Shown: positions 43,034 to 46,113 of the stretch, in pieces
How positions within the stretch are numbered: the stretch's first letter is position 1
How the letters are laid out: the number at the start of each line of letters is the position of its first letter
NCBI RefSeq assembly: GCF_000708755.2
Contig: NZ_JGVU02000006.1
Span: 62,001 to 126,000, forward strand
DNA: 64,000 bases
Reading direction: 5' to 3'
Source: Metabacillus indicus LMG 22858
GTDB lineage: Bacteria; Bacillota; Bacilli; Bacillales; Bacillaceae
Notes under the pieces: model-generated
What the model saw: only the letters and a program-made list of their open reading frames with translations
Told to the model about the DNA's origin: nothing
Database searches by the model: none
Position numbers and translations under genes: made by a program

Positions 43034-44305
43034 TTAAAGTGCCAAGTATTTTTCTGTGACGTAAAACAGCGTTTTCTCATCGCGCCTGCCGCATGCAATC
43101 GCAGCCACTTTTTTCAGTGCATCCTTAATGACTGAGCGGTCGTTAACAGCTTCCGATTCATCAAGGATTTCATGATAACATCTTAAAGCATCCGTCAGTT
43201 CCCCGCGTGATTGATGCATATCGCCAAGCAGATGAAGAAATTTAAATTTATAATCGGTAAAAGGCTCTGAATACGCTTCGTTGAATGATTTGTACAGGCT
43301 GAGAACGTGCTCCTCTTTTCCGGACTCCTGATAAGTAACAGCAAGTTCAAATAAGGTATTTAGGATCCCTTTGCTGTCTTCCAGCTGATTGTACAGGTCA
43401 TGAGCTGATTTTAGATACGAGACAGCACTTTCTGCATCTGATGTATATCTGCTTAAAATACCCAGGTTTGTATATGTTCCTGCCAGGTTCAGCTGATCGT
43501 CTGTTCCCTCAAAAAACAGAAGTGCCTTTGAATAGGCGCCTTTTGCATCTTCATACTGGCTCATCCTTCTGTAGCATAAGCCAAGAACCATGTAGACGAT
43601 GCCTGTCTGAAAATAGATGGCTGTTTTGCTGCTGACTGAAAGAGCCTGCTTAATAAAACGGATGGCGGAGTAGTACTCCCCCTTTTTAGCATGGGCAAGG
43701 CCAAGGTTGTTCAGCAGGGATATTTTTTCTACTCCCGATGCCTTGAAGGCAATGGAATCATCATACGCTTCATTTAAATATGTAAATGCTTTGGAAAAGC
43801 GGTCTTCATTAATCAGCAGAGAGGAGAGTTCATTGCTCGTTCTCAGCCGTTCTTCGCAATATGGCAGATTACAATACAGTTCATAGCTTTTTTCAAAAGC
43901 CGTGACTGCTCCATCCGTGTCCTGTCTGACACTTTGCAGGATACGCCCCTGACAAAAATAATAAAGAGCAAGATCCCGCTGATTAAGAGCGGACAGATTC
44001 TTTTCGATATCATTCAGATGCTCCTCAGCATCCGCAAAATCATCGTTTATAACAGCAAACTCCAAATTTGACAGCGCTTTTTTAATATCAAATGAAAGAA
44101 GTGCTTTATTTTCCTCTTCAAAGAAATCATGAATATCACACTGAAGCCGTTCACTGAACTTTAACAGCAGTTTATACGATGGCTGCACCATGCCTTTTTC
44201 AAGCTGGCTGATATAGCTTCTGTTCACAATGCCTGCTGCAAGCTCACTTTGGGTCAGTTTTTGTTTCTTTCTCAAATGCCTGAGTTTTAAGCCAACGGTA
44301 TTCAT
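43034..44305 (-). CDS. HTH-TPR regulator of the RNPP (NprR/PlcR/Rgg-like) type
   Basis: A 423-residue protein. Residues ~5-60 form an XRE helix-turn-helix (LRHLRKKQKLTQSELAAGIV, NRSYISQLEKGMVQPSYKLL). The rest is a tetratricopeptide array of about eight or nine repeats (SLLNNLGLAHAKKGEYYSAI, GIVYMVLGLCYRRMSQYEDA, AGTYTNLGILSRYTSDAESA). Size and layout match RNPP peptide receptors such as B. cereus NprR (~424). GGAGGGTAAGA precedes the ATG. A secreted pro-peptide gene is divergently placed 136 bases away, and a subtilisin gene follows it. The receptor role is inferred from family and context. Confidence 0.82.
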   Translation of the reverse strand: MNTVGLKLRHLRKKQKLTQSELAAGIVNRSYISQLEKGMVQPSYKLLLKFSERLQCDIHDFFEEENKALLSFDIKKALSNLEFAVINDDFADAEEHLNDIEKNLSALNQRDLALYYFCQGRILQSVRQDTDGAVTAFEKSYELYCNLPYCEERLRTSNELSSLLINEDRFSKAFTYLNEAYDDSIAFKASGVEKISLLNNLGLAHAKKGEYYSAIRFIKQALSVSSKTAIYFQTGIVYMVLGLCYRRMSQYEDAKGAYSKALLFFEGTDDQLNLAGTYTNLGILSRYTSDAESAVSYLKSAHDLYNQLEDSKGILNTLFELAVTYQESGKEEHVLSLYKSFNEAYSEPFTDYKFKFLHLLGDMHQSRGELTDALRCYHEILDESEAVNDRSVIKDALKKVAAIACGRRDEKTLFYVTEKYLAL

Positions 44306-44336
44306 TCTTACCCTCCTGAAAAAAGTCGATTATGTC

Positions 44337-44366
44337 TTGACAAGAAATTGAATAGTTGTATATATT
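44337..44366 (+). promoter_or_regulatory. SigA-type promoter of the peptide gene
   Basis: A perfect TTGACA (44337-44342) with TATATA at a 16-base spacer, or TATATT at 18. TGACAA (44338-44343) and TTGTCA (44371-44376) form an inverted repeat around the -10, a possible regulator site. Confidence 0.65.
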
Positions 44367-44387
44367 TGAATTGTCAGTTAATTATAA

Positions 44388-44402
44388 CAAAATGTTAGTT
44401 TT
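44388..44402. promoter_or_regulatory. 15-bp word shared with the subtilisin leader
   Basis: CAAAATGTTAGTTTT at 44388-44402, about 16-30 bases after the predicted start site of the peptide gene, is identical to 46042-46056. There it lies in the subtilisin leader in the opposite sense relative to transcription. It could be a common operator or an RNA-RNA pairing site. Confidence 0.5.
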
Positions 44403-44441
44403 ATTAAAATGTTTAATAAATAAATCATTGGAGGTCATAAC

Positions 44442-44582
44442 ATGAAAAAAGGGAACAAATATTTATTGTATCTTGCACTTGGTGCAGCCATCCTTACAGC
44501 AGGCTTTTCTGCATTAGATGATAAAGTCCATACGGCTGACGAAGAATGGCCGAGAATCATCAAGTCTGAAAAATACAGCTGA
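44442..44582 (+). CDS. Candidate secreted signalling pro-peptide (PapR/NprX/Phr-like)
   Basis: A 46-residue frame, ATG 44442 to TGA 44582, with TTGGAGGTCATAAC as ribosome site. A basic N-terminus and hydrophobic helix (KKGNKYLLYLALGAAILTAG) form a signal peptide. A short acidic linker follows, and the C-terminus is WPRIIKSEKYS. Length and layout match RNPP pro-peptides such as PapR (48 residues), whose last 5-7 residues are the signal. It is divergent from the HTH-TPR regulator and convergent with subtilisin. An alternative is that a frameshift separates it from an overlapping frame extending to 44718. Confidence 0.6.
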   Translation: MKKGNKYLLYLALGAAILTAGFSALDDKVHTADEEWPRIIKSEKYS

Positions 44583-44681
44583 GCTGATTGTTTTATATTC
44601 ATCTATTAAACCATATTTTTCAGAACGTGAACCAATCAATTTTGGAAAATCCTTTAAAAAAGAAAGCTTTACAGTAACTGC

Positions 44682-44728
44682 AAAACCGCTTAAACAGGCC
44701 TTCAAGCTACCTGTTTAAGCGGTTTTTC
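44682..44728 (+). terminator. Terminator of the peptide gene
   Basis: AAAACCGCTTAAACAGG and CCTGTTTAAGCGGTTTT form a perfect 17-bp stem with an 11-base loop and a T tail. Confidence 0.93.
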
Positions 44729-44735
44729 CTGTATA

Positions 44736-44771
44736 AAAAGAGCTTCCGGATCTAAAATCCGGAAGCTCTTA
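44736..44771 (-). terminator. Subtilisin gene terminator
   Basis: AAGAGCTTCCGGAT and ATCCGGAAGCTCTT form a 14-bp stem with a 5-base loop, followed on the minus strand by TTTTTATAC. Confidence 0.93.
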
Positions 44772-44779
44772 TCATCATA

Positions 44780-46030
44780 TTATTGAACTCTTGCAAATCC
44801 GAAGCCTGATGCATGGTCGTCACCAGTTGCCGCTCCGTATCCGCCTTTGATGTCATACAGTTTTGCACGTCGCTGAAGTTCCGCACGGACTTGTGCATTG
44901 CTTTGGCCTTTATTTGAAGACCAGATTTTCGCAGCAAGACCTGAAACGTGAGGAGTAGCCATAGAAGTTCCGCTGATTGTGTTGTAGCCGCTGTTAATCC
45001 AAGTAGATTCGATAGCAGCACCAGGAGCAGAGATCTCAACATCTCTTTCCTGAATCACAAAGTCTCCGTCAGTCGCTGAATTTCCACGGGATGAGAAGTT
45101 TGCAACACGGTATGTCCCGTTTTGCTGTACATTTTCAAGAGCTGCGACCGCCACTGCGTTTGTCAAAGCACCCGGGTAGCCGATTGTGTTATTTGCATAA
45201 CCTGAGTTTCCTGCAGCAGCAATCACTAAAGCGCCTTTGCTGTATGCGTAATCAACTGCACTTGTGATAAGGCTGTCTTTTCCGCTTGAACCAAGTGACA
45301 TTGAAATAACAACTTTTGATCCAGTTCTTGTTCCTTCATCAGCAGCATGTCTGATCGCCGCTGCAATATCATCAGAGTAGCCTGATCCGCTGTCAGTCAG
45401 CACTTTGTATGCCCAAAGCTCAGCCTGAGGTGCTACACCGTAAATGCCTTGTCCGTCTGAACCGCCGTTAGCAAGAGCTGAACCTGCCACGTGAGTTCCA
45501 TGTCCATTGCGGTCTGTACAAGAGTTGTTCGTATACGTTGTGCCTACAGTGAAATCTTTGCACTGCTCGGCGTTTTGAGACAGGTCAATATGGCTTGTCT
45601 GTACTCCAGTGTCCAAAACAGCAATTTTAATGCCGTCACCGCCTGAAGTCTGAGTCAGCGAGCTGTTGTTGTAAATGGCCTTAATTCCCCACGGAGTCCG
45701 TGTGCTTGGCACTGCCATCGTTTTAATTGGCTTGCCTGCAGCCACTTTAAATGTTGCCACCTTTTCAACCTTCAGCCTGCTGTTTTTCTGAAGTTTCTCA
45801 AGCTGCTCCTGAGTCACCGTCGCAGTATAGCCGGCAGCACCGAAATCTCTGCGGACTTTATGATTCTTCTTTACCTTTTGTGCATCGGTTCCCTTAATGA
45901 CAACACGGAATTGCTCCTGCTGCGCCTCCTGCTTAACTGGAGCCTCGGCAAAAGCGGCAGCTCCAAAAGATGAAAGACTTAAAGACAGACTAAGTGCAGC
46001 GGCTCCAAGCGTTTTTGAAAACTTCATCAT
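44780..46030 (-). CDS. Secreted subtilisin-like serine protease (S8; S41/sphericase-like)
   Basis: A 416-residue prepro-enzyme. A signal peptide (to about AAAFAEA) is followed by an I9-type propeptide (~residues 30-105) and the catalytic domain. Triad: Asp140 in IAVLDTGVQ, His177 in DRNGHGTHVAGSALANGG and Ser356 in TISGTSMATPHVSGLAA; the oxyanion Asn275 is in AAAGNSG. Cys157 and Cys171 (EQCKDF and NNSCTDRNG) could form the disulfide seen in this subgroup. The closest match I recall is the S41/sphericase subtilisin group. GAGGGGAAAT precedes two ATGs. It should be exported and self-processed. Confidence 0.93.
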   Translation of the reverse strand: MMKFSKTLGAAALSLSLSLSSFGAAAFAEAPVKQEAQQEQFRVVIKGTDAQKVKKNHKVRRDFGAAGYTATVTQEQLEKLQKNSRLKVEKVATFKVAAGKPIKTMAVPSTRTPWGIKAIYNNSSLTQTSGGDGIKIAVLDTGVQTSHIDLSQNAEQCKDFTVGTTYTNNSCTDRNGHGTHVAGSALANGGSDGQGIYGVAPQAELWAYKVLTDSGSGYSDDIAAAIRHAADEGTRTGSKVVISMSLGSSGKDSLITSAVDYAYSKGALVIAAAGNSGYANNTIGYPGALTNAVAVAALENVQQNGTYRVANFSSRGNSATDGDFVIQERDVEISAPGAAIESTWINSGYNTISGTSMATPHVSGLAAKIWSSNKGQSNAQVRAELQRRAKLYDIKGGYGAATGDDHASGFGFARVQ

Positions 46031-46041
46031 ATTTCCCCTCT

Positions 46042-46056
46042 CAAAATGTTAGTTTT
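46042..46056. promoter_or_regulatory. 15-bp word in the subtilisin leader, next to its ribosome site
   Basis: On the coding (minus) strand this reads AAAACTAACATTTTG and is followed directly by AGAGGGGAAAT and the ATG. It is the exact complement of the peptide-gene leader word at 44388-44402. Confidence 0.5.
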
Positions 46057-46084
46057 TTATAACTTTGTACTTCGAAGTAAATTA

Positions 46085-46113
46085 AATATATAATACGTTA
46101 ACAATTTTCACAA
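46085..46113 (-). promoter_or_regulatory. SigA-type promoter of the subtilisin gene
   Basis: On the minus strand TTGTGA (46108-46113), a 17-base spacer and TATATT (46085-46090). The predicted leader is about 48 bases. Confidence 0.55.

Follow-up and report, generated by a model that had tools for sequence, protein, structure and literature searches.

Does a helix-turn-helix (HTH) regulator with tetratricopeptide repeats (TPRs), lying back to back with a small exported-type peptide and close to a secreted-type subtilisin, belong to a peptide quorum-sensing module, and if so, which part of the peptide would be the signal? The locus that raises this question sits in a 64,000-nucleotide contig stretch, here called the window, of the 4.13-Mb genome of Metabacillus indicus LMG 22858. 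Our comparisons indicate, with good confidence, that a divergent propeptide and a nine-TPR receptor form a module of the RNPP/RRNPPA quorum-sensing type. The signal is likely an internal peptide around ADEEWPR, instead of a C-terminal one. No match to a named lineage was made, and RNPP quorum sensing is the most likely assignment. The elements of the locus are as follows.

43034-44305, minus strand: receptor, an HTH plus nine-TPR cytoplasmic regulator of 423 amino acids
44337-44366, plus strand: propeptide promoter TTGACA-N18-TATATT, from a promoter scan, kept in all seven genus members
44381-44418, no strand: candidate operator ATTATAACA-N20-TGTTTAATA, from a weight matrix and recurrence across the WPR clade
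44442-44582, plus strand: propeptide gene of 46 codons, with a signal-like N terminus followed by the internal core TADEEWPRII
44532-44561, plus strand: conserved propeptide core, codons 31-40, TADEEWPRII, proposed to contain the mature pheromone
44680-44730, plus strand: terminator-like hairpin 3' of the propeptide gene (-24.4 kcal/mol, z -7.1)
44735-44780, minus strand: terminator-like hairpin 3' of the subtilisin gene (-24.2 kcal/mol, z -7.0)
44780-46030, minus strand: secreted-type subtilase of the sphericase/SubTY kind, 416 amino acids, its role in the module unproven
46043-46113, minus strand: subtilisin promoter block, with TTGTGA-N17-TATATT at 46113-46085 and the half-site ACTAACATTTTG before the ribosome-binding site

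The coordinates and frames that the original prediction had assigned to the three genes are exact, and the promoter and ribosome site it described for the peptide were found as TTGACA-N18-TATATT and a GGAGG 7 nt ahead of the ATG. Receptor and propeptide genes diverge across a gap of 136 bp (44306-44441). The propeptide and subtilisin genes appear to be transcribed separately, because each has its own strong 3' hairpin.

A conserved receptor and propeptide in Metabacillus

The window genome and six further genus genomes, found among 60 relatives, make up the genus set. A conserved small frame beside the regulator in relatives had been named beforehand as the first of the tests that could refute the prediction, and it is present throughout: the divergent pair of RNPP-type receptor and exported-type propeptide is kept in all seven genomes, with the subtilisin alongside. 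Receptor identity across the genus is 68-98%. Two records bear other names: NZ_SMZY01000003.1 (L029), named Peribacillus frigoritolerans F-D2, groups with Metabacillus and is likely misnamed, and another inside the genus set is titled Bacillus sp. PAMC26568.

In a Pfam/NCBIfam search the receptor matched HTH_3 (5e-12) and TPR_12 (8e-25), and its predicted model has an HTH followed by 18 helices, that is, nine TPR-like helix pairs. Fold comparison returned NprR and Rap as the top bacterial matches, NprR being the best, so that an NprR/Rap-like fold is predicted; profile scores were E 3e-17 for NprR and 5e-17 for PlcR, with general TPR proteins scoring equally or better. The published RRNPP signature comprises a receptor of 250-500 amino acids, a propeptide of 10-100 amino acids and a gap of -60 to 400 bp (PMC10075063). 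With 423 amino acids, HTH_3 and TPR, the receptor has that length, the C-terminal TPR superhelix and the optional N-terminal HTH, as well as the HTH plus nine TPRs of the NprR-NprX architecture; its length and the 18 helices after the HTH differ from the five TPRs of the PlcR type. The propeptide, which matched no Pfam or NCBIfam family, likewise shows the RRNPP features of a basic N terminus and a hydrophobic stretch within the expected size and gap (46 amino acids, 136 bp from the receptor, an MKK start and a hydrophobic run).

Substitution rates and residue conservation both bear on where the signal lies. In comparisons of the window with the five non-sister genomes, nonsynonymous divergence (dN) of the propeptide is 0.30-0.37 against a synonymous divergence (dS) of 1.3-2.1, which indicates purifying selection at the sequence level. 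Columns 31-39, TADEEWPRI, are identical in 7/7 genomes; columns 31-40 show one residue change against six extra codon types, and the other 35 columns, start codon excluded, hold 38 further residue types. The prediction had placed the signal at the C-terminal IIKSEKYS and called for a conservation check on the last 5-8 residues, a check that this segment fails in part: its first three positions (I-I/V-K) are kept, and the last five read SEKYS, SEKYS, ASQSS, ANQYS, AHEYS, AHEYS and PAQFA in the seven genomes. Because TADEEWPRI is invariant and the last five residues vary, an internal signal appears likely and a C-terminal one unlikely, although the signal could extend as far as the I-I/V-K after the core. 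An internal position is plausible, PapRa7 being a published internal case (PMC3519770). Searches of the PubMed Central (PMC) literature for DEEWPR, DPVWP, ADEEWP and EEWPRI found none of them, and no literature on such a system in Metabacillus was found; the single PMC paper that combines the genus with quorum sensing and pheromone concerns subtilosin, to judge from its listing.

By eye, a lipobox (LTGC or LSGC) ends the signal sequence in five of the seven genus propeptides. In the window and its sister genome G004, Phe replaces the lipobox Cys. A switch in the export route of one signal thus seems to have taken place among the genus members.

Related pairs in other genera

The pair extends beyond Metabacillus. 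A profile search of genomes of the order matched 10/299 at E 1e-50, and a scan of named genomes returned 65 loci. Receptors account for 27 of them (L028-L054); the other 38 (L055-L092) matched by HTH or short stretches only and are excluded from all counts. Four of seven Priestia plasmid matches were examined (L121-L124). The loci overlap in part: the same organisms entered via two collections as L026/L051, L023/L035, L024/L036, L019/L021/L041, L016/L028, L017/L029 and L018/L030, one genome contributes L047, L049 and L050, and L034 and L053, which carry the same peptide, come from separate places on a single contig. A divergent short peptide lies beside the receptor, as judged by eye, in 14 of the 27 loci, and in 4/4 Priestia plasmid loci. 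What recurs outside the genus is mainly a D..WP(R) core, with little else of the propeptide conserved: ADEEWPR marks the genus and its nearest relatives, GDDTWPR/SDEVWPR occur nearby, DPVWP(RV) is found on Priestia plasmids and ADLVWP in Tumebacillus. The C-terminal parts of the divergent peptides are:

Bacillus sp. RO3 and CH30_1T: SFADEEWPRSSVKIDSKL and NLADEEWPRTSSNIDLNL, both with a lipobox-like end
AFS015802: TKADEEWPRTSPPIGQES
Jeotgalibacillus proteolyticus: EVGDDTWPRTKSVIVES
G065: NYSDEVWPRQTEII
Tumebacillus: NADLVWPENSPVFAR, KADLVWPENIAVLR and SDSAVIWPIGNSPVNG
Chengkuizengella: LDPVWPTFNG
Contig titled Sphingomonas PsM26: TDPVWP and SDPVWPRV
G293: RMDPIWP
Fictibacillus and G289, more distant: SDDDILPWIIKS and LSDALPW, respectively
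Four Priestia plasmid loci: one to three frames each, ending DPVWPRV, DPVWP or DPAWP

The Priestia plasmid peptide frames are absent from the PLSDB gene table, which is incomplete.

A rule for peptide open reading frames (ORFs) that combined hydrophobicity with the core, set after the peptides had been seen, was passed at 15 of 31 loci (the 27 plus the four plasmids) and at 2/7 further loci. The propeptide itself is the only passing ORF in the 64-kb window, and 80.5 kb of control loci from the window's own genome yielded none. The rule missed L028, which has the peptide but whose ORF was taken to begin at an upstream GTG, and the variant cores (D-4-WP, LPW) of L042, L026/L051 and L027. A DNA pattern for ADEEWP(R/S) matched 4/397 order genomes, each time within the genus and at this locus, and its reversed control matched none of the 397.

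By inspection of the tree, receptor phylogeny and peptide core seem to run together. A 14-row clade (100/99) contains 11 WPR rows and three rows with no recognised peptide (L032, L035 and L036); a six-row clade (96/95) is entirely DPVWP, and the DPIWP row L025 adjoins it (98/95). The tree is midpoint-rooted, leaves out G004 (98% identical) and carries a long-branch warning, above all for L051 with L027.

A recurring inverted repeat as candidate operator

The intergenic region between receptor and propeptide is strongly conserved in the genus, and within it lies the best weight-matrix match of the window, which scores 24.9, where the next separate site reaches 16.2; the matrix was built with this site included. 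Twenty regions were tested for the corresponding inverted repeat, AACA-N19-21-TGTT, with three of the seven genus leaders represented here and four in the matrix analysis. The repeat occurs in all eight WPR-clade regions, 48-52 bp 3' of TTGAC in seven of them; in the eighth, L022, the repeat is present and TTGAC absent. In five of six DPVWP regions the repeat occurs twice, 44-52 bp 3' of TTGAC and 38 bp 5' of it; the sixth, L038, lacks AACA-N19-21-TGTT. Among the other six regions, L040 has the repeat 38 bp 5' of TTGAC and L042 45 bp 3', where shuffles predict about 0.3 among six regions, and none was found in L025, L027, L039 or L051. We regard the inverted repeat as a candidate operator. It overlaps a minus-strand TATAAT (44381-44386), which the promoter scan did not list as a -10 element but which may serve as the -10 box of the receptor gene.

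How the module may work, and what else it might be

What the DNA itself shows is that the two genes are paired and conserved, that the peptide keeps a common core and that the inverted repeat recurs; the circuit suggested by these features is as follows. The propeptide would be exported by Sec, along a lipoprotein route in most genus members, and extracellular proteases would release a short internal peptide around ADEEWPR at presumed cleavage points. Following re-import by an oligopeptide permease, the peptide would bind in the groove that the nine TPRs of the divergently encoded receptor form and alter the receptor's affinity for AACA-N20-TGTT in the shared intergenic region, the direction of regulation being presumptive. 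With its candidate operator in that shared region, the cassette would be autoregulatory.

Several results weigh against this reading. No peptide was recognised at 13 of the 27 receptor loci (L032, L035, L036, L041, L043, L044, L046-L050, L052 and L054), L043 and part of L044 being judged by motif searches only. A word-blind test of the operator gave moderate support: the best word and spacing occurred in 5/14 leaders, a level reached by 11/300 shuffle sets, and per-region shuffle rates for the pattern run from 0.3 to 10%. What speaks for the operator is therefore that it recurs at a fixed position, and not any one site. Nor is the pattern enriched in its own genome, with 49 matches at one mismatch or fewer against 53 for the reversed control, and therefore it cannot be used to define a regulon.

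Could the peptide instead be the product? It is conceivable, if unlikely, that it is a small secreted effector—a lipopeptide, bacteriocin or ribosomally synthesized and post-translationally modified peptide (RiPP) precursor—and that the HTH-TPR protein regulates it while sensing something else. The lipobox forms among the genus propeptides would suit an effector, as would the tandem DPVWP(RV) frames on Priestia plasmids, which have radical-SAM and ATP-grasp genes as neighbours, but neither in the window nor in the genus stretches was a modification enzyme seen next to the peptide, and little except the peptide core is conserved outside the genus. The TPR receptor, moreover, is the constant partner across genera, whereas the other neighbours vary (aminotransferase, lasso-cyclase-like, ArsL, histidine kinase, dehydrogenase-like). 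We consider it quite improbable that the C-terminal IIKSEKYS is the signal and the subtilisin a regulated exoprotease or processing enzyme. Maturation from the C terminus is usual among RRNPP systems (PMC10075063), and the protease, a Peptidase_S8 match (1e-52) close to SubTY (5ffn, 4e-155) and sphericase (1ea7, 4e-150) by phmmer, keeps its place in all seven genomes. Its promoter block is largely conserved—TTGTGA and ACTAACA in 7/7 genomes and ACTAACATTTT in 6/7, with a differing -10 box in G003—and includes the operator-like half-site ACTAACATTTTG, which ranks ninth among all half-site positions in the window. Set against these points are the variable last five residues, the lack of a subtilisin homologue in 35 non-genus loci (flanks of 0.8-4 kb, some organisms represented twice) and the lack of a convincing full operator upstream of the subtilisin, where the best score is 10.9, the sixth window entry, versus 24.9. 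The link between subtilisin and module thus appears weak, the protease being at most a possible genus-specific target or processing enzyme.

An ordinary NprR-NprX system, whose receptor in its apo form would inhibit Spo0F in the manner of Rap, would account for the HTH plus nine TPRs and for NprR as the best bacterial fold match, yet we judge it very improbable. The minimal NprX of the Bacillus cereus group is SKPDIVG (PMC4970707), encoded downstream of its receptor (PMC9765709); here the peptide is divergent with the core ADEEWPR, identity over the structural alignment is 17%, and NprR and PlcR profile scores are about equal. The divergent order is itself unusual, since in Bacillales systems the pheromone is encoded immediately downstream of the receptor (PMC9765709), papRa, upstream of plcRa, being an exception (PMC3519770). 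The PlcR-PapR and PlcRa-PapRa systems offer likenesses in PapR7 (ADLPFEF), which by eye shares A-D and a proline-aromatic pair with the core, and in PapRa7 (CSIPYEY), which is also internal (PMC3519770), but their receptors have five TPRs and their peptides a P-F/P-Y core, against nine TPRs and a W-P core here.

Rgg-SHP systems, too, place a small peptide gene divergent from the receptor, and they are used beside natural-product clusters. SHPs are nevertheless shorter and exported by PptAB (PMC9765709), and Rgg falls in the five-TPR clan, with degenerate repeats (PMC12700828; PMC9765709). The module also shares its signature with the 21 candidate RRNPP clusters that Bernard et al. 2023 reported as novel (PMC10075063), and may be one of these or fall inside their NprR cluster. 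The main text of that paper mentions Priestia once, for P. koreensis plasmids called NprR-NprX, and does not contain Metabacillus, megaterium, Jeotgalibacillus, Tumebacillus, Fictibacillus or Rossellomorea.

A wider interpretation is offered tentatively, as a possibility for which we would not claim even odds: the module may represent an unnamed RRNPP lineage defined by a D-x-x-W-P core (internal or terminal), divergent order and a shared inverted-repeat operator, with varied recruited targets. These might be the subtilisin in Metabacillus, an arsinothricin-type cluster on Priestia plasmids and, in other places, biosynthetic genes that include lasso-like ones.

Neighbouring genes

Within the genus, an aldo/keto-reductase-like gene, named by eye, adjoins the receptor in all seven genomes. 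Downstream of the receptor lies an EAL/HDOD gene, matched over its full length in four of the six other genomes and partially in G005; no match was seen in the G002 stretch.

Elsewhere, the ADEEWPR module L033 has a lasso-cyclase-like gene upstream of the peptide (225 bits, under the cut-off of 525) and near it a small gene, PqqD-like by eye. The L033 receptor may control a RiPP cluster, to judge from this arrangement.

An ArsL gene, a radical-SAM gene of the arsinothricin type, adjoins the module in the four Priestia plasmids (L121-L124), in Chengkuizengella and on the PsM26 contig (L037 and L038 among the loci). Scores for NF040542 (ArsL) are 696 bits in L121, 698 in L037 and 704 in L038, against a cut-off of 450, and ArsL in the other three Priestia plasmids was taken from its annotated name. 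In one Priestia plasmid region, the listed genes include arsenic-resistance genes together with one for an ArsN1 arsinothricin N-acetyltransferase. The L037 contig (JARUXA010000051.1, titled Sphingomonas sp. PsM26) has a receptor that falls inside the Priestia plasmid receptors, and is probably contamination or misnamed. For the published arsQML cluster, reports come primarily from Proteobacteria (PMC8552651). Because the ArsL loci of six other Bacilli genomes, five of them informative, contain no such receptor, the link between module and ArsL is best read as local recruitment, and quorum control of an arsenical antibiotic by the Priestia-type module is a candidate function.

Implications

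These observations provide a signal (peptides around ADEEWPR), a receptor and an operator that can all be tested, in a genus where no paper on such a system was found. They also illustrate that conservation in a propeptide can lie elsewhere than at its C terminus, such that a C-terminal pheromone prediction would pick the wrong peptide here. On Priestia plasmids, where the module lies beside ArsL, quorum control of an arsenical antibiotic is directly testable; should the tentative lineage hold, it would place an arsenic-containing antibiotic under quorum control on these plasmids.

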